NCBI GenBank assembly: GCA_002086835.1
Contig: MVIG01000007.1
Location: 186,001-250,000, forward strand
Reading direction: 5' to 3'
Origin: Mycolicibacterium porcinum
GTDB taxonomy: Bacteria > Actinomycetota > Actinomycetes > Mycobacteriales > Mycobacteriaceae
Length of the DNA stretch: 64,000 bases
The notes under the pieces are model-generated. The model saw nothing but the letters and a program-made list of their open reading frames with translations, was not told where the DNA came from and did no database searches. Positions 15,799-48,730 of this stretch are shown here, in pieces. A program made the position numbers and the translations under genes. Numbering within the stretch: position 1 is the stretch's first letter; each line of letters opens with the position of its first letter.

Positions 15799-17460
15799 TC
15801 AGGCCATCGCGGCCAGCCAACCCCGGTACTCGGTGATGTCACGTCCTTGCGTGGGCGCTATGTGGTCACAACCGAACCCGGTGATCCAGCGGCCGTCGTC
15901 GAGTTCGACCTTCCCGAGCAGCATCGGTGCGGGCAACTCGGCGAGGAACTCCCCCAGCGCGGCCGGGGACAACAGCCAGCGCTCCCCCACGATCGGTGCC
16001 CCACCGTCGCCGACGCGGATCAGGCCAGGTTTGGGCGGAACCGTGTCGAGGGCATAGAGGCGGTAGTGCGGCGCGGTGGTGATCGGGCCCGCCCAACGGG
16101 CCCCCCGACCGGTGAGCTGATGCTCCAGCGGCTGCCCGCGCAGGTGCGCACCGAACACCGCAAGCTCGGTCACCGGCGCGCCGCCCGATTCCGGCCAGGC
16201 GGCGGCCGACGGCACATCGAGGAACCTGGCCGCCAGATCCGCGACGACCGCGTCATGAAATCCCGGTGCCAGCAGGGTGATTCCGAACTGCGCACCATCG
16301 GACACCGTGCCGGCGGGAACCGCGACGGCACACATGTCGAAGAGATTGCAGAAGTTGGTGTACCGGCCCATCCGGGAGTTCACCGCGACCGGGTCGGCCG
16401 CGACCTCGTCGATACGCGGATGCTCAGGAGCCGTCGGGACCATGAGCGCGTGGCATCCTGCGAGCTCCGTCAACGCGGTGCGACGCAACTCCTCGACCCG
16501 CCGCCGGTCACGCAACAGATCTGCCGCCGAATGCGTGCCGGCCGCGGTGACGATGGCTGCCACGGTCGGGTCCAGCTTCGCATCGGGGGTGGCCGCGCTG
16601 ACGAACTCTCCCACCGCGTCCCATCTTTCGGCGACCAACGCGCCGTTGTAGAGAAGGCCGGCCGCGGCGAAGAAATCGTCCATCGGGATCGGTACCGTGT
16701 CGAATCCGGCAGCCTTCGCCTGCCGCACGGCCTCACCGAACGCTGCCTGCCACGCGTCGTCGAGCCCGGCCAAGGTCTCCGGGATGGCGATTCTGGGAGT
16801 CACCGGCGCGGCGAAGGGCACGTCAGCCGGCCACTGGCGTTGCGGTGCACCGGCGGTCATCACGGCCATCGCCGACTGGGCCGTGGCCAGGTCGGCAGCG
16901 AATATCGTCACGCAGTCATAGCTCGCGCATGCCGGGACGACGCCCTCGGTGGAGACGAGGCCGACCGTGGCCTTGATTCCGACGATGCCCTGCAGTCCGG
17001 CCGGAACGCGACCCGACCCTGCGGTGTCGGTGCCGATGGCGATGTCGGCGAAACCGAGCGCAACGGCCACCGCTGACCCTGAACTCGAACCGCCGGATAT
17101 GTATTCCGGCCGACGGGAATCCCGCACGGCGCCATAGGGACTGCGGGTCCCGACCAATCCGGTGGCGAACTGGTCGAGGTTGGTCTTGCCGATGACGACA
17201 GCACCGGCGGCCTTGAGAGCGGTCACCGCCGGTGCGTCGGCATCGGGAATATAGCTGAAATCTGGGCACGCCGCAGTGGTCGGTATCCCGGCCACGTCGA
17301 CGTTGTCCTTGACGGCGAGCACCAAACCGGCCAGTGGGCCGTCATCGGCAAGCGCAGCGCGGTGGTCGTCCTCTACCTCGGCCTGCGGGCGCAGGTGGAT
17401 GAACACCTCGTCGCGTCCACTGGCTTCGATGGTCCGGTAGATCTGGGCGATCTTGCTCAC
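15799..17460 (-). CDS. atzF: Allophanate hydrolase
   Basis: A 553-residue amidase-signature enzyme that hydrolyses allophanate to ammonia and CO2, the last step of urea or guanidine breakdown by the carboxylase route. The Ser-cisSer-Lys triad is visible: Lys51 in AVKDNVDVAG, Ser126 in GGSSSGSA and Ser149 in GTDTAGSGR. A C-terminal domain of about 120 residues (from VFGAHLRGQPL) matches the extra domain of AtzF-type enzymes. The GTG start at 17460 forms a 4-bp GTGA overlap with the upstream carboxyltransferase gene. It is the last gene of a five-gene operon. Confidence 0.93.
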   Translation of the reverse strand: MSKIAQIYRTIEASGRDEVFIHLRPQAEVEDDHRAALADDGPLAGLVLAVKDNVDVAGIPTTAACPDFSYIPDADAPAVTALKAAGAVVIGKTNLDQFATGLVGTRSPYGAVRDSRRPEYISGGSSSGSAVAVALGFADIAIGTDTAGSGRVPAGLQGIVGIKATVGLVSTEGVVPACASYDCVTIFAADLATAQSAMAVMTAGAPQRQWPADVPFAAPVTPRIAIPETLAGLDDAWQAAFGEAVRQAKAAGFDTVPIPMDDFFAAAGLLYNGALVAERWDAVGEFVSAATPDAKLDPTVAAIVTAAGTHSAADLLRDRRRVEELRRTALTELAGCHALMVPTAPEHPRIDEVAADPVAVNSRMGRYTNFCNLFDMCAVAVPAGTVSDGAQFGITLLAPGFHDAVVADLAARFLDVPSAAAWPESGGAPVTELAVFGAHLRGQPLEHQLTGRGARWAGPITTAPHYRLYALDTVPPKPGLIRVGDGGAPIVGERWLLSPAALGEFLAELPAPMLLGKVELDDGRWITGFGCDHIAPTQGRDITEYRGWLAAMA

Positions 17461-19478
17461 GCAGACTCCTTTCGTGCGAATTCTCCTGCTGCTGCCCAAC
17501 GCTCGCGCTCTTCGGACCGTGCCGCCTCCATCGCGGCGCGGGTCGCGGCGATGTCCTCGGCATTGGCGGCGAGGAACTGGTCGTGCTCGGCCAGTGAGAA
17601 CGTTCCGTCGGTGATCTCGACATGACCACGGCCCGCGGCCATGTCGGCACGCAGGTCCAGTAGCTCGTCGGCGGACACCGGATACCACTGGATTCGATCG
17701 AAAAACCGCAACAGCCAAGGGTGTTCGGGATCGAATCCCTGGGCCGTCAGTGGGTGACGGTGGTTCCAGATCTGGGTGGTGCGGCCGACGAACTGGTATC
17801 CGCCCGGCCCCTCCATCCCGTAGATGCACAGGTAGGCCCCACCGATGCCGACCGCGTTCTCCGGCGTCCAGGTCCGGGCCGGGTTGTATTTGGTGGTCAC
17901 CAGGCGGTGCCGCGGATCCAGCGGCGTGGCAACCGGAGCTCCGAGATACACGTCGCCGAGGCCAAGCACCAGATAGTCGGCGTCGTAGACGATTCGGTGC
18001 ACGTCGTCGACCGAGGCCAAGCCGTTCATCCGCCGGATGAACTCGATGTTCCACGGGCACCACGGCGCGTCGGCGCGTACACCGTGCATGTAGCGTTCGA
18101 TTGCCTCCCGGGTCGACGGGTCATCCCAGCTGAGCGGCAACCGTACGGTCCGGCTGGGCACCACGAGGTCCTGCGCGGCAGGCAGCGAGGCCTCGAGCTC
18201 AGCCAGCAGCGGCACCAGCCTCGACTGCGGAAGCCGGGCCGGGTCCACCTTGACCTGCAGCGAACGGATTCCGGGCGTGAGGTCGATCAGCCCGTCCGGC
18301 CGATGCTGTTCCAGCGCGTGGTGCAGGGCATGCGCACGGGCTCGCAATGCCAGGTCCAGTCGCATCTCGCCGTACTCGACGAGGACGTTGTCGTCTCCGA
18401 TCCGGCGGTAGGTGACGGTCGTGCTGCCGTCCGATGAGGTTGTGCCGGCGATAATTCCGTCGTCCTTGTCGCCTCCTGGCGAGAACACCGCCGGGATGGA
18501 GGCACGCCGGGCCGGGCCGACGGTGCCCGGTGCCGGTGCCGCCGACGCGCGGACCGGCACGAACCGGATGGTGGCGCCGGGTGCGAGCTGACCCAGTTTC
18601 CAGCGGTCGGCGGCGGTGACGGTGACCGGGCAGACGAAACCGCCGAGGCTCGGGCCATCGGGACCGAGCAGGATCGGGGTATCCCCGGTGAAGTCGAGCG
18701 AACCCACCGAATAGGCGTTGTCGTGAATGTTCGACGGATGCAGCCCGGCTTCCCCGCCGTCGGGGCGGGCCCATTCCGGCTTCGGCCCGATCAGTCGCAC
18801 ACCGGTGCGGTCGGAGTTGAAGTGCACCTCGTAGTCGTGATCGAGCAGCGTGCCGATGTCGTTGCGCGTGAAGAACTCCGGCGCGGAATGCGGGCCGACG
18901 GTCACCGCGATGTACCAGTGGCTGCCGATCGCCGGTTGTTCCTCGAACAGGATGCGCCGGCGGACACCGCCCACGGCGTCGCGGGTTTCCAGCTTGTCCC
19001 CCACCGTCAGCGTCCGGCCCTCGTGGCCGCCGAACCGGCCCAGGGTGAATGTCGATGCGCTGCCCAGGTATTCGTCGGCTTGCAGGCCGCCCTCGACCGC
19101 GATGTAGATCCGCAGACCCGGGCCGTCGACCATCCCCACGTCAAGGATCTGACCGGCCTCGACCAGGACCGGCACCCACTGCGCGACCCGCGCCCCGTCG
19201 ACGGTCACCGGCGCGGGTGCGCCCGTCACGCATACCCAGGTGTCGGTGTCGAACCGCACCGCCGGTCCGCCCATCGTGGCCTCCAGACCGGGCGCGCCCT
19301 CCGGATTGCCGACCGCGATGTTGGCGAGCCGGAAGGACACGTCGTCCATCGGTCCCGACGGCGGCACCCCGATCTGCCAGTACCCCGTCCGGCCCGGCCA
19401 ATCCTGGACCGTGGTGGCCATCCCGGGCCGAACGATCTCCAGGGTGCGCACGCGAGGATCTGAAGAATATTCCCTCAT
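17457..19478 (-). CDS. Urea/guanidine carboxylase-type carboxyltransferase lacking biotin carboxylase and biotin carrier domains
   Basis: A 673-residue protein with the two cyclophilin-like carboxyltransferase subdomains of urea amidolyase: a KipA/PxpC-type half (about 10-330; VRPGMATTVQDWPGRTGYWQIG and SGPMDD) followed by a KipI/PxpB-type half (about 360-580; DNVLVEYGEM and LTPGIRSLQVKVDP). Full urea or guanidine carboxylases have about 1200 residues, with an N-terminal biotin carboxylase and a C-terminal carrier with an MKM lysine; both are absent here. It ends in a charged tail. ATG 19478 overlaps the preceding stop (ATGA). It must use a biotin carboxylase encoded elsewhere, or perform a different ATP-dependent step. 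Confidence 0.85.
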   Translation of the reverse strand: MREYSSDPRVRTLEIVRPGMATTVQDWPGRTGYWQIGVPPSGPMDDVSFRLANIAVGNPEGAPGLEATMGGPAVRFDTDTWVCVTGAPAPVTVDGARVAQWVPVLVEAGQILDVGMVDGPGLRIYIAVEGGLQADEYLGSASTFTLGRFGGHEGRTLTVGDKLETRDAVGGVRRRILFEEQPAIGSHWYIAVTVGPHSAPEFFTRNDIGTLLDHDYEVHFNSDRTGVRLIGPKPEWARPDGGEAGLHPSNIHDNAYSVGSLDFTGDTPILLGPDGPSLGGFVCPVTVTAADRWKLGQLAPGATIRFVPVRASAAPAPGTVGPARRASIPAVFSPGGDKDDGIIAGTTSSDGSTTVTYRRIGDDNVLVEYGEMRLDLALRARAHALHHALEQHRPDGLIDLTPGIRSLQVKVDPARLPQSRLVPLLAELEASLPAAQDLVVPSRTVRLPLSWDDPSTREAIERYMHGVRADAPWCPWNIEFIRRMNGLASVDDVHRIVYDADYLVLGLGDVYLGAPVATPLDPRHRLVTTKYNPARTWTPENAVGIGGAYLCIYGMEGPGGYQFVGRTTQIWNHRHPLTAQGFDPEHPWLLRFFDRIQWYPVSADELLDLRADMAAGRGHVEITDGTFSLAEHDQFLAANAEDIAATRAAMEAARSEERERWAAAGEFARKESA

Positions 19479-20095
19479 GGGCGCGTCACGATCATTCGTA
19501 CGGCAGTCGGGTCAAACCCGTTGCAGGGGTTGTTGATCTGCGGGCAGTTCGACACCAGGACCAGGGTGTCGATCTCGGCGCGCAGCGACACGGTCTTGCC
19601 CGGAGCGGACAGTCCGTCGACGATGCCCAGCGAGCCGTCAGGGTCCACCGGGACGTTCATGAAGAAGTTGATGTTGCTGACGATGTCGGCCTTGGTCAGC
19701 CCCCAGCGGGCGCCTTCGCCGATGAAGTTCTCCACGCAGGCGTGCTGGTGTTTGGTGTGGTGCCCGTAGCGCAGCGTGTTCGATTCCTGCGAGCAGGCCC
19801 CGCCGAGGGTGTCGTGATTGCCGACCTCGTCGTCGACGATGGTCAGCATCGGCGCGCCGTCGCTGTCGCGCAGCACCGATCCGGTGGTCAGGAAGATGTT
19901 GCCCTGCGCCGCGATCGTGGCCGGTGCGCTGTAGCGCACGGTGTGATCGTCCGCTCCGTAGAACAGCGTGTCCACAGCCTGGTTGCCGTGCAGGTCGACG
20001 ATGGTGAGCACGTCGCCGGCACGCACGACCTTCGACCACGGGGCGCGGGGCGCGACGATTTCATCGACAACGGTGTGGGCGGCGGTGATGGTCAT
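19475..20095 (-). CDS. DUF1989 protein, urea carboxylase-associated protein 2 (carboxyguanidine deiminase-type subunit)
   Basis: A 206-residue DUF1989 protein (urea amidolyase-associated, UAAP2). Landmarks are LHGNQAVDTLFYGADDHTVRYSAP, NHDTLGGACSQESN and QHACVENF, with Cys and His residues suited to metal binding. In bacteria that grow on guanidine, two paralogous DUF1989 proteins form carboxyguanidine deiminase (CgdAB), which converts carboxyguanidine to allophanate. The neighbouring carboxyltransferase and allophanate hydrolase fit that route. ATG 20095 overlaps the stop of the paralogous upstream gene by 4 bp, and its own stop overlaps the next start, so the products are translationally coupled. 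Confidence 0.85.
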   Translation of the reverse strand: MTITAAHTVVDEIVAPRAPWSKVVRAGDVLTIVDLHGNQAVDTLFYGADDHTVRYSAPATIAAQGNIFLTTGSVLRDSDGAPMLTIVDDEVGNHDTLGGACSQESNTLRYGHHTKHQHACVENFIGEGARWGLTKADIVSNINFFMNVPVDPDGSLGIVDGLSAPGKTVSLRAEIDTLVLVSNCPQINNPCNGFDPTAVRMIVTRP

Positions 20096-20919
20096 CGGGC
20101 ACTCCAGACGTCTTCGGAATTCAGGTAGGCACGTTGGTATTCGGGATCGCGCTCGCCGACCGTGGCATCGATCTCGGTCAGGTCGCCGGGGGCCGACCAG
20201 GCCAGCACCTCGAGCGAGCCGACGGTGAACTGCGGCGCAGGGTCCAGCGGATGGGCGGTGTTGGCGATCGCGACGATCAGCGGGAGATGCGTGACCAGCT
20301 CGATCGCGGTACCGGCGCCGGCCGATCCGGTGGACACCAACGCGCCGTCGGCTTCGACCCGTACGCCGTGGAAGAAGGACAGGCTCGGCGCCACGTCGCG
20401 TCGGGTCAGCCCGTTCTTGAGGGCGGCCAGCGCGAGCAGTTCGCGTCCGGCGGGGCTGGCCGACTCCACCTCGCCCGCACCGTACTTGGCCGTGTTGCCG
20501 GACAGGGTGGTGGTGCCGCACAGCGCGTCGTGGTGACCCGAGGTGTCCGACACCAGGGTGGCCAGCACCCGTCCCTGGTCACTGAGCAGCGGGTGGCCTG
20601 CCGAAAGATAGGCCTGCCAGGGCACTTTCACGGTGTCGGCGACGTTGAGCCGTTCCCAGGGTGCGTCGGCGCGCCACAGCAGCAGGTGGGCGCACGCCGT
20701 GCCATCCAGATCGCGCAGACGCAGCCGAGTGCCGCGGGCCAGAACCTTGCTGGTGTAACGGCCGCCGGGAACCGTTTCGGCCCAGGTCAATTGCTCGGAT
20801 GCCACGCCCGGCGGCGGTGTGGGCCAGTTCGATGCCGGTACGACGGGCATCGAGTCGGTGAGGGTGCCGGCCTGGGCCCGCGCGTGGTCGCGGGCGCCTG
20901 CGGTGGTCGCGGTGGTCAT
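20092..20919 (-). CDS. DUF1989 protein, urea carboxylase-associated protein 1 (carboxyguanidine deiminase-type subunit)
   Basis: A 275-residue paralogue of the next gene's product, with a longer N-terminus. DLDGTACAHLLLWRADAPWERLNVADT and GHHDALCGTTTLSGNTAKYG parallel the HGNQAVDTLFY and NHDTLGGACS motifs of the partner, consistent with a heteromeric enzyme. ATG 20919 begins one base after the permease stop at 20921. As with its partner, the guanidine-degradation role is inferred from known CgdAB systems and operon context. A urea-derived or other carboxylated amidine substrate cannot be excluded. Confidence 0.85.
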   Translation of the reverse strand: MTTATTAGARDHARAQAGTLTDSMPVVPASNWPTPPPGVASEQLTWAETVPGGRYTSKVLARGTRLRLRDLDGTACAHLLLWRADAPWERLNVADTVKVPWQAYLSAGHPLLSDQGRVLATLVSDTSGHHDALCGTTTLSGNTAKYGAGEVESASPAGRELLALAALKNGLTRRDVAPSLSFFHGVRVEADGALVSTGSAGAGTAIELVTHLPLIVAIANTAHPLDPAPQFTVGSLEVLAWSAPGDLTEIDATVGERDPEYQRAYLNSEDVWSAR

Positions 20920-20920
20920 C

Positions 20921-22465
20921 TCAGACTCCGATCGTGACGGGATTGGGGTGGGTCTTGCCGCGCGGGAAGCACAGGGCGCCCAGGACTACCGCGGCGGCGA
21001 TGCTGAGCGGTCCGGCCCATTGCAGAATCGGCATGTCGCCGGTGGGGTTGAAGATCTCGGCGCGCGGCCAGCCGAGGTTGACGATCATCACCGCGCCGTA
21101 GAGCACCGCCAGGACATTCACCGCGACACCGAACTTGCCGAGTGAGAACAACGGCAGGCCTTCGGCGTCAACCTGATTGCGCTGGGCGGGCCAGCCTTTG
21201 AGCCGGCGGTACAGCAGCGGCGCGGTCACCAGGAGGTAGGCCAGGTAGATCAGGATGATGCAGACGCTGGCCAGGGTCGCGAAGATGGCCGAGTTGCCGA
21301 CGTTGACCAGTAGCACCCCGATGCACAGCAAGCCGATGAGCACCGAAGGCCAGATCGGCGTGCCGGTGTGGCTGTTGACCCGGGACAGGATCGACGAGGC
21401 GGGCAGCCGCCCGTCGCGCGCCATCGAGAACATCAGCCGGGACGCGGCGGTCTGAATTGCCAAGGTGCAGATCGTGATCGCGATGGATACGTCGATCAGC
21501 AGCACCGTGCCCCATGGAGAGGACAGGACGGTGTCGAGCACGTAGGGCAGCCCTTCGGTGGCCAGGCGTCCGTCGGTCAGGCTCGGGGCGGCCATCAGGG
21601 CGCCCAGGATCATCAGTCCGCCGCCGAGTGCGGAGACCGACAGGGCCAGCCGAATGGTGCGGGGCGCGACGCGACGCGGGTTGCGGGTCTCCTCGGCGAG
21701 TTCGCCGGCAGAACCGAAACCGACCATGACGTAGGCCGCCATCAATCCCGACATGATCCAGGCCCAGACGTAACCGGGCTGTCCACCGGCGTGGCCCGTG
21801 TCGAACACGACCTGGGGGCCGCGCTGGGCATGGGTGAAGAACACCCCGATGACAGCGATGACGCCGACGATCTCGCAGATCACCCCAGCGCTGTTGACGC
21901 GTGACATCCATTTGACACCAAGGCAATTGATCGTGGTGGTGAGCACCAGCAGGACCGTGCCGAGCAGCACCGCATTGGCCGCGCCGCTGGGCGAGGTCAG
22001 TGCCGGGTCCTCCCCGATCACCTGGAAGCCCGACCAGATCGACGGCAACACCACCTGCAGCGCGATCGCGGCGGCCGAGGCGGTGACGATCTGGGCCAGG
22101 ATCATGAACCAGCCACCGAACCAGCCGATCACCTCGCCACCCATCCGCCGGGACCATTGATAGATGGCGCCAGAGATCGGGTAGCGCGCGGCCAGTTCGG
22201 CGAAGCACAGTGCGACGAGGAACTGGCCGAGGAACACCGCGGGCCAGGTCCAGAAGAAGGCGGGGCCGCCGAAACCGAACCCGAGGCCGAACAACTGGAA
22301 GATCGTGGTCAGAATGGACACGAACGAGAAGCCGGCGGCGAAGGATTCGAACTTTCCGAGCCGACGGTGCAATTGCTGGTCATAACCGAATTCGGCGAGG
22401 TCGTCGTGGTCGCTGGAACGGTCGGCGGCCACATCTTTCCGTCGCTCGGTAGCGCTGCTGGTCAT
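20921..22465 (-). CDS. APC-family permease, probable urea/guanidine-type nitrogen compound importer
   Basis: A 514-residue amino acid-polyamine-organocation transporter with about twelve membrane segments. The N-terminal motif (LGKFESFAAGFSFVSILTTIFQLFG) and the SGAIYQWSRRMGG loop are typical of permeases of the UctT/choline/GABA type found with urea-amidolyase operons. It is the first gene of the operon, and its start lies 72 bases from a four-part GlnR-like box, so nitrogen-limited expression is likely. Substrate is inferred from the downstream enzymes only. Confidence 0.9.
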   Translation of the reverse strand: MTSSATERRKDVAADRSSDHDDLAEFGYDQQLHRRLGKFESFAAGFSFVSILTTIFQLFGLGFGFGGPAFFWTWPAVFLGQFLVALCFAELAARYPISGAIYQWSRRMGGEVIGWFGGWFMILAQIVTASAAAIALQVVLPSIWSGFQVIGEDPALTSPSGAANAVLLGTVLLVLTTTINCLGVKWMSRVNSAGVICEIVGVIAVIGVFFTHAQRGPQVVFDTGHAGGQPGYVWAWIMSGLMAAYVMVGFGSAGELAEETRNPRRVAPRTIRLALSVSALGGGLMILGALMAAPSLTDGRLATEGLPYVLDTVLSSPWGTVLLIDVSIAITICTLAIQTAASRLMFSMARDGRLPASSILSRVNSHTGTPIWPSVLIGLLCIGVLLVNVGNSAIFATLASVCIILIYLAYLLVTAPLLYRRLKGWPAQRNQVDAEGLPLFSLGKFGVAVNVLAVLYGAVMIVNLGWPRAEIFNPTGDMPILQWAGPLSIAAAVVLGALCFPRGKTHPNPVTIGV

Positions 22466-41800: not shown

Positions 41801-42154
41801 GAAATGCCACACGTCGACGGCCTCGACCGGCAATCGCAGACAGTATCCGGGGGCAGCGCTGACGATGACACGGGCGACCGCCCGCGGCTCGCGCCCCGGT
41901 TCGAGGACGCGGCGCAGATGAGAGATGTAGGCCTGCAGCGATGACAGCACCTTTGGGGGTGGCTCGCCCTCCCACAGGTCGTCGACAAGCCTGTCGACCG
42001 ACACCACCTCGCCGTGGGCGGATATCAACCGGGCCAACACCGATCGCTGCCTGCGACCGCCGAGTTCCGCCGGTTCGCCGCCCACCCACGCCCGGATCGG
42101 CCCCAGCGCAGCCACCCGCACCGCGGAAACTGCGGAATTCTCAGGGGCCGTCAT
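38786..42154 (-). CDS. SARP-type regulator with AAA ATPase and TPR-like region (AfsR-like)
   Basis: A 1122-residue regulator. Residues 10-105 are an OmpR-like winged helix ([27 protein letters not shown]), and about 110-260 the bacterial transcriptional activation domain ([11 protein letters not shown] to [16 protein letters not shown]). An ATPase follows, with Walker [13 protein letters not shown] (about 310) and Walker [10 protein letters not shown] (about 405). The last 500 residues are Ala-rich helical repeats. This is the AfsR/large SARP architecture, which usually activates secondary metabolism or transport genes. No biosynthetic cluster adjoins. The likely nearby targets are unclear; it is divergent from crcB1 by 48 bases. 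Confidence 0.9.
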
Positions 42155-42202
42155 GGTGAGCCGACCTTAGCTGTCTGGCAGCCGACCGACATACTTTGCA
42201 TC

Positions 42203-42601
42203 ATGACCCGTCACGACGGCCGCGAACTCGCCGCAGTGTTCGTCGGCGGAGCCCTGGGCACCCTCGCCCGCGCCGGTCTGGTTGTGCTCGCGGCACCTCA
42301 ACCCGGGCATTGGCCGTGGCCGACATTCATCGTGAACATCGTCGGCGCGTTTCTGCTGGGCTACTTCACCACGCGACTGCTGGAACGGCTGCCGGTGTCC
42401 AGCTACCGCCGGCCGCTGCTGGGCACCGGTGTATGCGGCGGATTGACCACGTTCTCCACGATGCAGGTCGAGACGGTGACGATGCTCGAGCACGGCAACT
42501 GGGCATTGGCCGCGGGCTATACCGCGGCCAGCATCGCCGCCGGGCTGCTCGCGGTGGCGATCGCGACCGCGATGGTGCGCCGGGCGGCGGTGCGCGGATG
42601 A
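42203..42601 (+). CDS. crcB1: Fluoride channel CrcB/Fluc, first subunit
   Basis: A 132-residue four-helix membrane protein: [23 protein letters not shown] and [15 protein letters not shown] are the conserved Fluc pore motifs (Asn and Phe-box residues, TTFST with the Na+-site). It exports fluoride by passive channel flow. In actinobacteria two Fluc proteins of opposite topology form a heterodimer. ATG 42203 is chosen for length and motif position. Its stop overlaps the second gene's ATG (ATGA). No fluoride riboswitch fits in the 48-base gap upstream. Confidence 0.92.
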
Positions 42602-42966
42602 CGACCGTCATGGTGTGGACCGGCGTGCTGCTGCTGGGCGGCGCCGGAGCGGTCTGCCGGTTCCTGCTCGACCGCGCGGTGTCCGCCCGGCACACCCGGG
42701 GATTCCCGTTCGGCACCCTGGCGGTCAACCTCAGCGGCGCATTCCTGCTCGGGTTCCTGGGCGGCCTGGCCCTCGACCGGCACGCCGCACTGCTGGCCGG
42801 TACCGCATTCGTCGGGTCCTATACGACCTTCTCCACCTGGATGTTGGAGACGCAACGGATGGGTGAGGAGCGCCGGATCTGGCCTGCGGTGGGCAATATC
42901 GTCGTCAGCGTGGCACTGGGCCTGACCGCGGCATGGTTGGGCATGGTGGTGGGAGGCCGGTTGTGA
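42598..42966 (+). CDS. crcB2: Fluoride channel CrcB/Fluc, second subunit
   Basis: A 122-residue four-helix protein with [26 protein letters not shown] and [18 protein letters not shown], the Fluc signatures. It pairs with the overlapping upstream gene. The first subunit has Arg/His residues on the opposite side of its first loop, consistent with inverted topologies. ATG 42598 sits in a 4-bp overlap, and its stop overlaps the next GTG (GTGA). Confidence 0.92.
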
Positions 42967-44030
42967 CCACCACCGATTACCTCAAGCTGACCGCGTACTT
43001 CGCCGAGCGGCTCCGCCACGAGCGTGGCTTCGTCGCCGACGCGCTGTTGGACCTGTACGGGGACAACGACATCGCGATCAGCGTGATGCTGCGCGGGATC
43101 TCCAGCTTCGGCCCGCACCATCACCTACGCACCGACGAGACGCTGAGCGCCTCGGAGGATCCCCCGATCGCCATCGCCGCCGTCGATGCCGCCGACAAGA
43201 TGTCCGCGCTGGCCGAGCAGACCGTGGCGCTGATCCCCCGTGGCCTGGTCACCCTGGAACGCGCGCAATTGATCCGCCGCGAGTCGCCGGCTCCGACCGT
43301 CGCCGACGTCTGCAAGCTGACTGTCTACGTCGGCCGTCATCAACGTGTCGGTGGAGTCCCGGCCTACCGTGCGGTATGCGATCTGCTGCACCGACGCGGT
43401 TTCGCGGGGGCGACCGTGTTCCTCGGAGTGGACGGGACCGCACACGGCCGGCGTCGACGCGCCGCGTTCTTCAGTCGCAACACCGACGTACCGCTCATGA
43501 TCATCGGACTCGGTACCGGCGCCCAGGTCAACGCTGTGCTCGGCGAGCTCACCGAGCTGCTGGAGAACAATCCGCTGCTCACCATCGAGCGCGCGCAGCT
43601 GTGCAAGCAAGGTGGTGAAATGCTGGCCCGGCCTGCCAAGCTTCCGGACACCGATGCCCAGGGCCTTCCGCTGTGGCAGAAGCTGATGGTGCACACCTCC
43701 GAGACAGCGCACCACGACGGAGTGCCGGTACACCGGGCGATCGTCCGCAGGCTGATGCAGACCGGCGCGGCAGGCGGAGCCACCGTGCTGCGCGCGGTGT
43801 GGGGGTTCAGCGGCCAGGACCAGCCACACGGGGACAGGCTCTTCCAGTTCGGACGGCAGGTGCCGGTGACGACCATCGTGGTGGACACGCCGCGGCGGAT
43901 CGCGGCAGCCTTCGAGATCATCGACGAAATCACCCGCGAGCACGGTGTGGTGAGCGCCGAGATGGTGCCTTCCGCAACAGTTGTCGATGCCGGACACCGG
44001 CACGGCGGGACCGGTCTGGCCCGGTTCTGA
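42963..44030 (+). CDS. Triple DUF190 (PII-like) protein in the fluoride channel operon
   Basis: A 355-residue protein made of three tandem DUF190-like domains, at about 4-105, 117-220 and 243-350. Each has the pattern KLT-[YV]-...-LL..G..GA-.VL.G-.-[FSG]...-[VP]-I...D.....-[LI]. Examples are DYLKLTAYFAERLRHERG, DVCKLTVYVGRHQRVGG and LWQKLMVHTSETAHHDG. DUF190 is usually one domain of about 110 residues, with a ferredoxin-like fold related to trimeric PII signal proteins. GTG 42963 overlaps the crcB2 stop by 4 bp. A regulatory or ligand-sensing role in fluoride export is inferred from genome context only. Confidence 0.85.
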   Translation: MTTTDYLKLTAYFAERLRHERGFVADALLDLYGDNDIAISVMLRGISSFGPHHHLRTDETLSASEDPPIAIAAVDAADKMSALAEQTVALIPRGLVTLERAQLIRRESPAPTVADVCKLTVYVGRHQRVGGVPAYRAVCDLLHRRGFAGATVFLGVDGTAHGRRRRAAFFSRNTDVPLMIIGLGTGAQVNAVLGELTELLENNPLLTIERAQLCKQGGEMLARPAKLPDTDAQGLPLWQKLMVHTSETAHHDGVPVHRAIVRRLMQTGAAGGATVLRAVWGFSGQDQPHGDRLFQFGRQVPVTTIVVDTPRRIAAAFEIIDEITREHGVVSAEMVPSATVVDAGHRHGGTGLARF

Positions 44031-44078
44031 AGGTCGGCCGCGTCCCCGGCAAGCGTCGGCCGCCATTGTTAGGGTGAG

Positions 44079-44197
44079 GGAGATAGCGCCTAGGGTTCCG
44101 GTGCGCCAGTGCATGGTGTGCGTCTGGTCCGAGCGGCGCCACCGTAGTCCCGGACGGAGTGCGGTCATCTGAACGGACAAAAGCCTGGAGGATCTCC
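44079..44197 (+). ncRNA. ykkC-class riboswitch, most likely guanidine-I
   Basis: The three hallmark blocks of ykkC RNA occur in order: TAGGGTTCCG at 44091-44100, CTGGTCCGAG at 44124-44133 and GGACAAAAGCC at 44175-44185. The ends pair as P1, GGAGAT (44079-44084) with ATCTCC (44192-44197). It lies just upstream of a TauE/SafE transporter gene. Subtype 1 binds guanidine; subtype 2 RNAs bind ppGpp, PRPP or other nucleotides. Subtype 1 is favoured by the transporter context and by a guanidine-type operon in the same window, but was not proven. Confidence 0.85.
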
Positions 44198-44199
44198 GT

Positions 44200-44216
44200 C
44201 GGCGTGCCCCACGCCG
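44200..44216 (+). promoter_or_regulatory. Hairpin between riboswitch and ribosome-binding site
   Basis: CGGCGTG and CACGCCG form a seven-bp stem with a three-base loop, immediately after the aptamer and just before GAGAAGG, the likely ribosome-binding site. It is well placed to be the expression platform, acting through alternative pairing with the aptamer 3' strand. The absence of a T-run favours translational control. Confidence 0.45.
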
Positions 44217-44232
44217 GCGAGAAGGTCCTGCG

Positions 44233-44961
44233 ATGCTGACTCTCGTCCTGGTTTTGGTTCTCGCCTTGGGCGCCGGCGCACTCGGCGGCCTGGTCGGGAC
44301 CGGATCGTCACTGGTGCTGCTGCCGGTGCTGGTACTCCTCTACGGGCCGCGCGCAGCGGTCCCGATGATGGCGATCGCCGCCGTGATGGCCAATATCGGC
44401 CGAGTGGCCGCCTGGTGGCGAGAGATCCGTTGGGGTCCTGTATTCGCCTATGCGACACCGGGCGCTCCGGCCGCGGTCCTCGGTGCGCACACCCTGCTGA
44501 CGATCTCCCCGAGAATCGTCGATGGGCTCTTGGGCGGGTTCTTCCTCGTGATGATTCCGGTCCGTCGAGCGATGGCCAAGCGCGCATGGCGGGTGCGGCT
44601 GTGGCAGCTCGGTATCGCGGGTGCGGTGGTGGGTTTCCTGACCGGCCTGGTCTTGTCGACGGGACCGCTGAGCGTGCCGATGTTCACCGGCTACGGGCTC
44701 GGGGCAGGTGCCTTCCTCGGATCCGAAGCAGCCAGCGCATTGCTTCTGTACACCGCAAAGCTGGCCACCTTCGGTCAAGGCGGGGTGCTGACAACGGGTC
44801 TCATCGCCAGCGGTCTGGCGATCGGCACGGCGTTGATGATCGGCCCGTTCTTGGTCCGCCGGATCGTGCATCGACTTCAGCCGCAGACCTATGCACGCCT
44901 GATCGACTTGGTCCTGGTTGCCGCTGCGACCGGCATGTTCATCGCCGTCGGTTCCGGCTGA
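44233..44961 (+). CDS. TauE/SafE-family membrane transporter under a ykkC riboswitch
   Basis: A 242-residue protein with about eight hydrophobic segments in two repeats: ALGAGALGGLVGTGSSLVLLPVLVLLYG begins the first and AGAVVGFLTGLVLSTGPLSVPMF the second, the TauE/SafE signature. Members move sulfite, sulfonates or other small anions, often outward. ATG 44233 has GAGAAGG seven bases upstream. The riboswitch in its leader makes its expression depend on guanidine or a related ligand, suggesting a role in exporting guanidine, a derivative or a counter-ion. The usual guanidine exporters belong to the SMR family, so this would be an unusual partner. Confidence 0.85.
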   Translation: MLTLVLVLVLALGAGALGGLVGTGSSLVLLPVLVLLYGPRAAVPMMAIAAVMANIGRVAAWWREIRWGPVFAYATPGAPAAVLGAHTLLTISPRIVDGLLGGFFLVMIPVRRAMAKRAWRVRLWQLGIAGAVVGFLTGLVLSTGPLSVPMFTGYGLGAGAFLGSEAASALLLYTAKLATFGQGGVLTTGLIASGLAIGTALMIGPFLVRRIVHRLQPQTYARLIDLVLVAAATGMFIAVGSG

Positions 44962-45053: not shown

Positions 45054-45323
45054 ATGCAGTCGACAACACCCGAAGCGGTCAGCGCCGCCCTCACCGAGAT
45101 CCTTCGCGACGACATGAACGTCGATGTCCGCCGGGTGACCAGGGAATCCCGCCTCATCGATGACGTCGGCCTGGACTCGGTGGCGTTCGCCGTCGGCATG
45201 GTGGCGATAGAGGACAAGCTCGGGGTCGTCCTGTCCGAAGAGGACCTGCTCAGCTGCGACACCGTCGGCGACCTCGAGGCGGCCATCCTGGCGAAAGTGC
45301 CTGCCGCGCAGAGCAGCCAGTGA
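45054..45323 (+). CDS. mbtL: Acyl carrier protein MbtL
   Basis: An 89-residue carrier with the phosphopantetheine attachment Ser42 in GLDSVAFAV. It carries the fatty acyl chain that becomes the lipid tail of mycobactin. Order and length match M. tuberculosis Rv1344. It is the first gene of the mbt-2 operon, behind an IdeR-like box, and its stop overlaps the mbtM GTG by four bases (GTGA). Confidence 0.93.
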
Positions 45324-46894
45324 GCGTGCTGGCCACGGCGCTCGCCGCGTCGCTGACCACCACCGACACCGACCTCGTGGTCTACGACCTCGAGACCCGC
45401 GACTGGACGCGCCATCCGTGGGGGCAGGTGTTCGCGCGCGCCGAGAACGTCGCCGAACAGATCGGCGAGGACGGTTCGACAGCAGTCGGTGTCGTCGGTG
45501 AGCCCACCGTTGAGAGCATCGCGGCGGTCCTCGGCGCGCTGCTGGCCGGCGCGGCACTGTCGGTACTGCCCGGACCGATCCGGGGCGCGGACGTGGATAC
45601 CTGGGCACAGTCCACCGTGAACCGATTCGCGGGCATCGGAGTGGGCACCGTGTTCAGCCACGGTGGCTACCTGGAACTGCTGCGGACGGTCGAGACCCCG
45701 CTGAAGATCCACGATGGCGCGGTGGTCGCCCACCCTCAGCGCTCCACCACGCTGCCTCTGGGAACCGGGCGGTTCGCCGTCCTGCAGGGCACCGCCGGCT
45801 CGACCGGCACCCCCCGCACAGCGCAGCTGACGCCGGCGGCGGTACTGGCAAACCTGCGTGGGCTCAGCGAGCGGATCAGCCTGTCCCACAGCGATATCGG
45901 CTGCTCGTGGCTGCCGCTCTACCACGACATGGGACTGACCTTCCTGCTGGCCGGCGCGCTCGGCGGCATCGAAGTGTGGCAGGCCCCGACCATGGCGTTC
46001 GCGGCTTCGCCGTTCAGCTGGGTGCGCTGGCTGACCGAGAGCCGCGCCAGCCTGACCGCCGCGCCGAACATGGCCTACGGCCTGATCGGCAAGTACTCCA
46101 AGCGCCTGACCGATCTGGACCTGTCCGCGGTTCGGTTCGCGCTCAACGGAGGCGAGCCGGTGGATTGCCAGGCGACGATCCGGTTCGGCACCGAACTGTC
46201 CCGCTTCGGCTTCAACCCCGGAGCGCTCTCACCCTCGTACGGGATGGCCGAATCGTCCTGCGCGGTCACGGTTCCTGTGCCCGGACTCGGGGTGGTCCTC
46301 GACGAGATCACCGTCGCGACCGACGCCGGGTCCAATCAGCAGCAACTCGCGGTGCTCGGTGACGCCATCCCCGGGATGGAAGTCCGCCTGCGGCCCAGCG
46401 AGGACAACGCCGGCATCGTCGACCGTGAGGTGGGTGAGGTCGAGATCCGCGGCACGTCGATGATGTTGGGCTATCTCGGCCAGCCACCGCTGAACCCCGG
46501 GGACTGGTTCGCCACCGGCGATCTCGGCTATTTCGTCGACGGCGGCCTGGTGGTCTGCGGACGCACCAAGGAACTGATCACAGTGGCCGGGCGCAACATC
46601 TTCCCCACCGAGATCGAGCGGGTTGCCGCTCAGGTCAAGGGTGTTCGTGAAGGTGCCGTCGTCGCAGTCGGTGCCGGCGAGAAGTCGGTCCGCTCCGGCC
46701 TGGTGATCGCGGCGGAGTTCCGTGGGTCCGACGAGGCCGACGCCCGCAGCCAGGTGATCCAGCAGGTGGCATCCGAGTGCGGCATCGTGCCCGCCGACGT
46801 GGTGTTCCTGACGCCGGGTTCACTCCCCCGCACCTCCTCGGGCAAGCTGCGCCGCCTGGAGGTCAAACGACAATTGGAGGCAGCGAAGTCATGA
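45320..46894 (+). CDS. mbtM: Long-chain fatty acid-AMP/ACP ligase MbtM (FadD33)
   Basis: A 524-residue adenylate-forming enzyme that activates a fatty acid and loads it on MbtL. The AMP-binding P-loop [30 protein letters not shown] (the FAAL/FadD signature), [13 protein letters not shown], the hinge-region [25 protein letters not shown] and the closing [14 protein letters not shown] with the catalytic Lys are all present. GTG 45320 overlaps the mbtL stop, and its stop overlaps the mbtN ATG (ATGA). Order matches Rv1345. Confidence 0.93.
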
Positions 46895-48066
46895 CCGCGC
46901 TCACGCCCACGTCGGCGCCGGCCACCACCTCACTCGACGAGTACCGCGATCTGCTGGACCGGGTGTTCGACGGCCAGGTCAAGGCCTGGACCGCCGAAGC
47001 CGAAGAGACCGAGAGCTTTCCGCGCCAGCTCATCGAGCACCTCGGCCGCAACAGGGTGTTCAGCGAGAAGTGGGGCGACGGGCAACAACCCGACGTGGCC
47101 AAGCTGGTCGAACTGGCCCTGGCGCTGGGCCGGAACGGGTCATCGGGCATCGGCGTCGGTGTCAGCCTGCACGATTCGGCGATCGCCCTACTGCGTCGCT
47201 TCGGCAAGTCCGACCACCTGCGCACCATCTGCGAACAGGCCGTCCGAGGCGAAGCTGTGCTGTGCATCGCGGCCTCCGAGGAGTCCGGGGGTTCGGACCT
47301 GCAGATCGTGGAAACCGAGGTCCGCACGGCCCGCGACGGATTCGAGATCAAGGGCATCAAGAAGTTCGTCTCCCTGTCGACGATCGCCGATCACATCATG
47401 GTGGTGGCCCGCAACGTCGACCATGATCCGACCAGCAGGCACGGCAACGTCGTCGTCATCGCGGTCCCGACCACCCAGGTCGAGATCCAGACGCCCTACC
47501 GCAAGGTCGGCAACGGGCCGCTGGCCACGGCCGCCGTGCACATCGACACGTGGGTGCCCGCCGATCATCTGGTGGCCCGGGCCGGCACCGGGCTGGCGGC
47601 GATCTCCTGGGGCTTGGCCCACGAACGGATGTCGATCGCCGGACAGGTCGCCGCCGGATCGCAGCGCATCCTGGGGATCACGTTGGCGCGCATGATGAAA
47701 CGACGTCAGTTCGGTCACACTCTCTACGAGCATCAGGCGCTGCGGATGCGGATCGCCGATCTGCAGGCCCGCGTCGACCTGCTGCGTTACGCGCTGGCCG
47801 GGGCGGCCGCGCAGGGCAAGCTGGATCTGCGCGCCGCGGCCGCCTTCAAGGTCACCGCCGCGCGGCTGGGCGAAGAGGTGGCATCGGAATGCATGCACAT
47901 CTTCGGCGGCTCCGGCTATCTCGTCGACGAGACCCCGCTGGGCAAGTGGTGGCGCGACATGAAGCTGGCCCGCGTCGGCGGCGGCACCGATGAGGTGCTG
48001 TGGGAGCTGGTGGCCGCAGCAATGAAGCCCGACTACGACGGCTACGCCGAATTCGCCGGAGCCTGA
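46891..48066 (+). CDS. mbtN: Acyl-ACP dehydrogenase MbtN (FadE14)
   Basis: A 391-residue acyl-CoA dehydrogenase-fold flavoenzyme that introduces the alpha,beta double bond in the mycobactin acyl chain while it is bound to Mbt[37 protein letters not shown] and [38 protein letters not shown] are its landmarks. ATG 46891 overlaps the mbtM stop and has GGAGG ten bases upstream. Its position corresponds to Rv1346. It converges on mbtK, with only 13 bases between stops. Confidence 0.93.
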
Positions 48067-48079
48067 ACCTATTCTCCGG

Positions 48080-48730
48080 TCACCCGGCGGCGCCGAGGGC
48101 GTCGTCGGGTGTGCGCGGCAGCGCATAGAGGGCCATCCGACGGTTGGACATCTGGTGCTCACCCAGGAATTCGCATCCGGCCCATTCGCACACGCGCCGG
48201 GCGCCGGCGTTGCGGTGGTCCGGATCGAACATGATCCGGCGGCAGGCCGATTCGAGTTCGAACACGTTGGCCACGATGCGCGGCAACAGGATCGGACCGA
48301 TGCCGCGGTTGACGAATCGCAGATCCGCAATCGCGGCGTGCATGCCGATGTCGTGCGGGTCGGCGGCATAGCGGGGCGCGATGGAGTCCTTGGCCGCCCG
48401 GTACAGCTCGATGTAGCCGACAGGCTTGCCGCGGAAGCTCGCGATGAACGGCCGTGAGTACTGACCGTCCAGCTGAGCCTGCAGGTATCGGCGCCAGCGC
48501 TCCGGCTCCCAGTCGTACTCCCAGGCTTCCACGAGGTGCGGACGGTTCATCCACTCCGACACCAGCTCGGCATCGGCGTCGGCATCGGCGACCCGGATGT
48601 CGTAAGGATCGTCCAGGGCCGGGGTGGGCGGAGCGTCGACGGAGCGCACCTCGTCGGTGATGTCGGTCAGCTCGCGCTTGAGTACGGCGGCCCCTGGCAA
48701 GTCGGTCACATCGGTATCGATATCGCTCAT
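48080..48730 (-). CDS. mbtK: Lysine N6-acyltransferase MbtK
   Basis: A 216-residue GNAT-fold acyltransferase that transfers the long acyl chain from MbtL to the lysine N6 of mycobactin or its precursor. [57 protein letters not shown] and the C-terminal [25 protein letters not shown] match Rv1347c and siderophore acetyltransferases, including the His-bearing and pantetheine-binding segments. ATG 48730 has its own IdeR-like box 27-45 bases upstream, so it is co-regulated with the convergent mbtLMN operon. Confidence 0.93.

Follow-up and report, generated by a model that had tools for sequence, protein, structure and literature searches.

A subtype-2d-type ykkC riboswitch ahead of a TauE/SafE transporter gene in Mycolicibacterium porcinum, and its possible link to phosphonates

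A TauE/SafE-family transporter gene of Mycolicibacterium porcinum is preceded by an RNA of the ykkC riboswitch family which, judged by sequence against the published description, fits subtype 2d and not guanidine-I. The RNA lies in a 64,000-nucleotide stretch of contig MVIG01000007.1 (GCA_002086835.1, positions 186,001 to 250,000), here called the window, and all coordinates refer to that stretch unless a locus is named. On balance, and with modest confidence, we favour a subtype-2d-type switch that would turn translation on when it binds a phosphonate-type ligand, with the TauE protein as exporter of that ligand. The most likely ligand would be a phosphonate or an aldehyde or acid derived from one, and 2-aminoethylphosphonate, N-methyl-AEP, phosphonoacetaldehyde and phosphonoacetate are the candidates.

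The aptamer occupies 44082–44192 (+) with helices P1, P1a/b, P2 and P3, and was recognized by the Rfam family RF00442, by a covariance model of our own (R1) and by covariation in relatives. RF00442 is the sole credible Rfam match for the leader and aligns to 44079–44192 (+) with 48.7 bits (E 9.8e-8 for a 501-base stretch against 4227 Rfam families), and no second match at E ≤ 10 was found across the 6.96-Mb genome. Because this score is under the gathering score of the family (63 bits), a default Rfam scan of the window misses the RNA and returns tRNA only, no ykkC. The family search suggested in the initial annotation thus gave a significant match that stays below the curated score. R1, for which 37 relatives but not the window were used, scores 107.6 bits on the window (E 1.3e-22), the runner-up in the 64 kb reaching 7.6 bits. 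The signature blocks CUAGGGUUCCG, CUGGUCCGAG and ACAAAAGCC are all present, and the P1 stem forms between 44086–44090 and 44135–44139, both as first described.

Relatives were collected by a pattern scan of a species collection, which gave at least 119 loci (80 of them listed), including Mycolicibacterium sphagni (L054) and Plantibacter flavus (L009). With L001 and L005 added, 121 loci were sorted into groups A (50), B (24) and C (47). Membership of group A required the linker CATCTGA, which is therefore uniform within it by definition; group B, EamA leaders with a P0-like helix, was separated from group A by eye; and group C, among the matches listed, has long P0 ends as in PRPP/ppGpp aptamers and consists mostly of Firmicutes records. 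The alignment A1 holds 35 of the 50 group-A loci and two of group B (L019, L113), with the window left out. In its helices, 96.5% of cells are paired versus 83.2% in shuffles, 140 cells are altered on both sides versus 41.5 in shuffles, and two-sided changes are seen in 16 pairs versus 11.5. The structural evidence for the aptamer is comparative, because the aptamer stretch alone folds no better than shuffles (z 0.03). The significant covariance match and the covariation of P1–P3 place the RNA on the ykkC scaffold, and sequence comparison confirms that a real riboswitch of this family stands ahead of the TauE/SafE gene, as had been proposed.

The more specific label of guanidine-I, given in the initial annotation, has to be withdrawn. 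A single position has been described as separating guanidine-I (A46) from its variants, which carry a pyrimidine (PMC6031431), and this A, part of the AG bulge, makes contact with guanidinium (PMC6031431, PMC11661666). The marker is A46 in 5T83 and, by our own consensus mapping, A34 in 5U3G; in the window it is C (44134, +). Further, the P2–P3 linker at 44166–44170 (+) reads CAUCU in sequence and alignment, where guanidine-I has CACGG, and could pair as U168–A192, C169–G191 and U170–G190 (alifold on A1, with one compensatory change in 37 rows). In guanidine-I, A34, G63 and G64 contact guanidinium (PMC11661666, numbering mapped here by consensus alignment), and the same mapping places in CACGG both G63, which stacks, and G64, which makes a phosphate contact. 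The A-to-C change at the AG bulge together with the CACGG-to-CAUCU change would therefore remove all three contacts.

Comparison within the genus points the same way. When R1 was run on 297 genomes of the window's genus, 33 scored above 106 bits, one 73.5 bits and 44 between 31 and 60 bits. The alignment of mycobacterial matches took 50 loci (10 of L126–L155, plus L156–L195), and C at the marker with CAUCU was found in 29/29 aligned loci above 100 bits, all found by R1. The marker is also C in 37/37 rows of A1, partly by construction, since the search pattern required C or T. Of 20 ykkC loci with low scores in this genus (L176–L195), 15 have A with CACGG; the others are L183 (A with another linker), L177 and L178 (G), and L182 and L185, which have C yet low R1 scores. 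The guanidine-I threshold was passed by 11 of the 14 low-score loci scanned with Rfam, including L183 and L177; the marker is thus not absolute, since L177 has G. Across the rows shown of the marker–linker table, in which some loci are counted twice, C occurs with CAUCU in 112/162, A with CACGG in 17/18 and U with CACCG in 17/23. Having neither the A, nor the CACGG linker, nor a score of 63 bits, and differing from the guanidine-I RNAs of its own genus, the window's RNA was rejected as a guanidine-I switch.

The mycobacterial loci hold two further observations. In 5 of the 14 scanned (L181, L187, L188, L189, L192), a guanidine-III switch lies 113–227 bases from the guanidine-I RNA on the opposite strand, so that two guanidine sensors of unrelated kinds are neighbours. 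Also, more ykkC variants with C or G at the marker and other linkers occur at L175 (9001–9131, −), which precedes an EamA gene, and at L182 (4914–5035), L177 (2031–2136) and L178 (5081–5185); these are possible additional specificities.

The partner genes agree with an assignment to subtype 2d. Subtype 2d (Nelson 2017 and Sherlock 2018/2019, as cited in PMC7266159) has been described as controlling EamA (phn_DUF6) and TauE transporters, and as an orphan (PMC7266159, PMC5912903), still without a ligand in a 2020 review (PMC7266159); the guess in print is that it responds to a small toxic molecule resembling guanidine (PMC5912903). The window's RNA has the pyrimidine at the marker and a TauE partner (PF01925). 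Among the matches listed, 48 group-A loci were read onward from the RNA: 43 continue with EamA and 3 with TauE (one a fragment), and in 2 the DNA ends before the next gene. The 33 mycobacterial genomes above 106 bits divide into 25 with TauE in this place (one a fragment) and 8 with EamA. The EamA relatives of L007 and L012 match TIGR03340 (phn_DUF6) under its cut-off. TauE is therefore not the unrecognized partner that it was first taken for, subtype 2d with EamA and TauE being already in print (PMC7266159). In a phylum sample of 396 genomes, R1 matches above 100 bits occur in the window's genus and in one family. We take the genus to be Mycobacterium in the broad sense and the family to be Microbacteriaceae. 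In proteobacteria and a number of actinobacteria, EamA-type genes follow a separate set of leaders with C at the marker, in which a helix like P0 (UCGAC/GUCGA or a variant of it) was made out by eye. The leaders are L012, L032, L061, L082, L105, L117, L022, L055 and L087. Because the neighbours of some group-B leaders read as what we presume to be leuA- or hut-like genes, group B may be another subtype, perhaps a ppGpp-type control of an exporter.

The transcript probably begins at the aptamer. A −10 box, TAGGGT, lies at 44070–44075 (+), and TANNNT is found at −22 to −19 from CTAGGG in 84/84 distinct group-A loci versus 0/84 in a control window, among the matches listed. We infer from this a start near 44082 (GAUAG). 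Downstream, the strand GGAUCU at 44190–44195 (+) can place its GGA in P3 or, alternatively, in an anti-Shine-Dalgarno stem, as complementarity in relatives indicates. It is followed by an inner GC-rich hairpin of 10 pairs (44197–44219, +, from the fold of 44186–44232) and by the Shine-Dalgarno sequence AGAAGG (44220–44225, +), which stands 7 nt from the ATG and overlaps the pairing partner AGGUCC (44223–44228), identified by sequence and covariation. The hairpin after the aptamer, first drawn with seven base pairs, is real and longer: it extends over 44186–44232, takes in the Shine-Dalgarno sequence and has a folding energy of −30.6 kcal/mol (z −4.58). In relatives, a GGANCC at the 3' edge of the aptamer complements the Shine-Dalgarno region at a near-constant distance, and all 6 pairs form in 59/69 distinct loci (77 collected), whereas 200 shuffles give 36.4 on average and never more than 43. 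P3 and the anti-Shine-Dalgarno stem are mutually exclusive, because P3 uses this GGA as its 3' strand. This covariation supports translational control, probably in the ON direction. Without ligand, GGAUCU would pair with AGGUCC and the long hairpin would bury the Shine-Dalgarno sequence; with ligand bound, the aptamer would hold GGA in P3, leaving the ribosome site free and allowing the TauE transporter to be made.

The predicted target gene at 44233–44961 (+) encodes a TauE/SafE-family membrane protein of 242 aa, which matches PF01925 over most of the domain with 85.4 bits (gathering score 32.6). It stands directly after the riboswitch, as first described, and is very probably controlled by it. 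No homologue of the protein was found by sequence among solved structures at E ≤ 0.01. Directly upstream of the riboswitch (42014–44030, +) are a CrcB-type gene and a gene for a DUF190 protein (three matched stretches), and a second CrcB-like reading frame, by sequence reading only, seems to sit between them; CrcB serves fluoride export. On the other side, 45054–48730 opens with an acyl carrier protein (PP-binding), followed by a putative AMP ligase and a putative acyl-CoA dehydrogenase, with a putative acetyltransferase on the other strand. These genes, with an IdeR-like palindrome before them, resemble the mycobactin mbtL-M-N-K cluster. In mycobacteria, the RNA–TauE unit has no common partner gene, save in one set of 5 related loci.

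The evidence on the ligand comes from the Microbacteriaceae. In an even sample of 150 genomes from 85 genera, the RNA was found in 13 genomes of 11 genera, 12 above 100 bits and one (G913) at 68.5 bits. The phosphonate permease PhnE was found at E ≤ 1e-30 in 41/150 genomes, comprising 13/13 RNA-positive genomes versus 28/137 others (Fisher 9.6e-9). With the curated cut-off, the counts are 10/13 versus 25/137 (Fisher p 2.6e-5), the other 3 being below the cut-off. In 11 of the 13 genomes, PhnE lies 3.0–6.2 kb downstream of the RNA on the same strand (3 of these 11 score 204–216 bits, the cut-off being 216.7), and in the remaining two (G943, G868) it is elsewhere in the genome, away from the RNA. 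Among the matches listed, PhnD, PhnC, a double PhnE, HpnW, a PhnX-like hydrolase and HpnZ recur downstream of the group-A EamA gene. Representatives of PhnC, PhnE, HpnW, the PhnX-like hydrolase and HpnZ pass their NCBIfam cut-offs, and the binding protein passes TIGR01098 and fails TIGR03431. PbfD, of the HpnW family TIGR03364, has been reported to oxidise N-methyl-AEP to phosphonoacetaldehyde (PMC10590968). PhnD or HpnW occurs within 8 kb in 19/48 group-A loci, 0/11 group-B loci and 0/60 other subtype-2 loci, again among the matches listed; the 60 controls lie outside the A list and the 11-locus B list and are mostly of other phyla. The other 29/48 group-A loci have neither PhnD nor HpnW in the stretch examined. 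The EamA clade is present in 13/13 RNA-positive Microbacteriaceae genomes, and two genomes have EamA orthologues (57 and 61% identity) without the RNA. EamA itself may thus be the phosphonate-linked part, with the RNA sensing something else, because one of these genomes (G863) has EamA beside PhnE.

The linkage seen in 11/13 Microbacteriaceae genomes is absent from the window's own locus. The genome of the window encodes HpnW and a PhnX-like hydrolase (contig 9) and PhnC and HpnZ (contig 15), all over their cut-offs, together with PhnE on contig 15. When the surroundings of the RNA, in the window and at 20 mycobacterial loci, were searched over 19 kb with actinobacterial queries, weak ABC-ATPase matches turned up but no PhnD, PhnE or HpnW. 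For tests across the genus, the 33 genomes above 106 bits were counted as RNA-positive, G386 (73.5 bits, EamA) as negative, and the 44 at 31–60 bits as a second group. PhnE was found in 15/33 RNA-positive genomes versus 44/264 (p 3.4e-4) and HpnW in 14/33 versus 69/264 (p 0.06), both uncorrected for relatedness; 12/33 RNA-positive genomes have neither. The guanidine-pathway protein UAAP2 is as enriched, occurring in 20/33 RNA-positive, 3/21 low-score-ykkC and 9/26 other mycobacterial genomes (20/33 versus 12/47, p 0.002), so that the PhnE enrichment in the genus does not single out phosphonates. Being unspecific and uncorrected for relatedness, the genus-level co-occurrence was set aside as evidence.

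The binding pocket gives a second line of evidence. The 5-phosphate of PRPP is bound in its aptamer by G48 and C78, and the metal ion of that phosphate by C49 (PMC6031431). By consensus alignment mapping, group A keeps the equivalents of G48, C49 and C78 and loses the guanidine contacts (PMC11661666). A pocket with these changes, as read from the sequence, would fit an oxyanion.

Alternative ligands were weighed against this evidence. A divergent guanidine-I switch would sense guanidinium, with TauE removing guanidine or its carboxylated product in concert with the carboxylase operon about 22 kb upstream. The operon (15799–22465, −) encodes allophanate hydrolase, urea carboxylase, UAAP2, UAAP1 and a permease, and is of the urea/guanidine-carboxylase type by gene content, in agreement with the initial annotation. 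The operon, the over-representation of UAAP2 and the RF00442 match as the only credible one in Rfam speak for such a switch, as does L177, which passes the guanidine-I threshold with G, so that the marker alone does not decide. We nevertheless consider it improbable, given that the A34, G63 and G64 contacts are lost (PMC11661666, consensus mapping), that 15/20 low-score ykkC loci of the genus keep A with CACGG and 5 of the 14 scanned adjoin guanidine-III, and that RNA and UAAP2 are more than 100 kb apart in the 7 other genomes with both on one contig. These distances, and the lack of any Rfam match at E ≤ 1 at 22–23 kb, also leave the proposed coupling of one branch for export with one for catabolism without support. 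A nucleotide-type ligand (ppGpp, PRPP or ADP/dADP, as in subtypes 2a, 2b and 2c) agrees with the pyrimidine at the marker and with the C as fourth base of the CANC linker, as in CACCG, but is about as improbable. PRPP and ppGpp aptamers use P0. The ends of the window's RNA are complementary (GGAGAU/AUCUCC, 44079–44084 with 44192–44197) and resemble that helix, but the complementarity lies partly before the inferred start, and the 5' strand would fall at or before it. In relatives, the positions are 46.5% paired versus 43.5% in shuffles (62/500 shuffles as high), and the helix was rejected as unconserved. The P0 add-on helix of subtypes 2a, 2b and 2c is thus missing, as are their purine, amino-acid and NUDIX/HAD partner genes: the window has TauE and its relatives EamA or TauE wherever read, in 46/48 group-A loci (among the matches listed) and 33/33 mycobacterial genomes.

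A third possibility is that the RNA senses some other small ion or metabolite, for example a sulfonate, sulfite, an amine or a toxic cation, which both TauE and EamA would export; the Microbacteriaceae phosphonate genes would then be mere regulon neighbours. In its favour are the Pfam name of TauE/SafE, sulfite exporter, the mycobacterial RNA–TauE unit with no shared partner beyond the 5 related loci, and the guanidine-like guess in print for 2d (PMC5912903). We regard this as rather unlikely, given that the linkage of PhnE in 11/13 genomes and of PhnD or HpnW in 19/48 loci (among the matches listed) is hard to get by chance. Returning to the phosphonate reading, TauE, like the EamA that replaces it elsewhere, would export the ligand. 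A bolder version, offered tentatively, is that subtype 2d, the remaining orphan among the ykkC RNAs, would be the first class of riboswitch found to respond to carbon–phosphorus compounds and would sense an intermediate of AEP breakdown such as phosphonoacetaldehyde, with the phosphonate held where PRPP places its 5-phosphate, and with TauE and EamA as unrelated, interchangeable exporters.

A literature search that covered few subscription papers listed none that reports a ligand for 2d or a riboswitch responding to phosphonates, and a term search of a 2022 riboswitch review (PMC10043782) found neither TauE nor EamA in its text. The association of the RNA with PhnE in Microbacteriaceae is new here, the pairing of 2d with EamA and TauE being already in print (PMC7266159). 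From the operon linkage and the comparison of pockets, a few phosphonates can be named as ligand candidates. If true, this would add new chemistry to riboswitch ligands, show that a single RNA scaffold can come to bind either cations or oxyanions, and assign substrates to two uncharacterised transporter groups. In addition, a sub-threshold Rfam match to guanidine-I should not be taken for guanidine biology.

Among known systems, guanidine-I (RF00442) shares with the window's RNA the ykkC scaffold, the blocks CUAGGGUUCCG and CUGGUCCGAG, AAAAGCC and P1–P3, whereas in the window the A of the AG bulge is replaced by C, CACGG by CAUCU and GGGAGA by GGAGGA. With the PRPP and ppGpp aptamers (ykkC 2b and 2a), it has in common C49 and C78 (PRPP numbering, mapped by consensus), which contact the phosphate or its metal (PMC6031431); it differs from them in having no conserved P0, U for C77 and other genes. 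The protein of the window resembles TauE/SafE over most of the PF01925 domain. The closest likeness is to the published 2d orphan, which is described as having a non-A marker, an EamA (phn_DUF6) or TauE partner, guanidine-I as its closest relative and no conserved P0, a likeness judged by that description. The 2d ligand suggested in print is guanidine-like, whereas the evidence gathered here points to a phosphonate.
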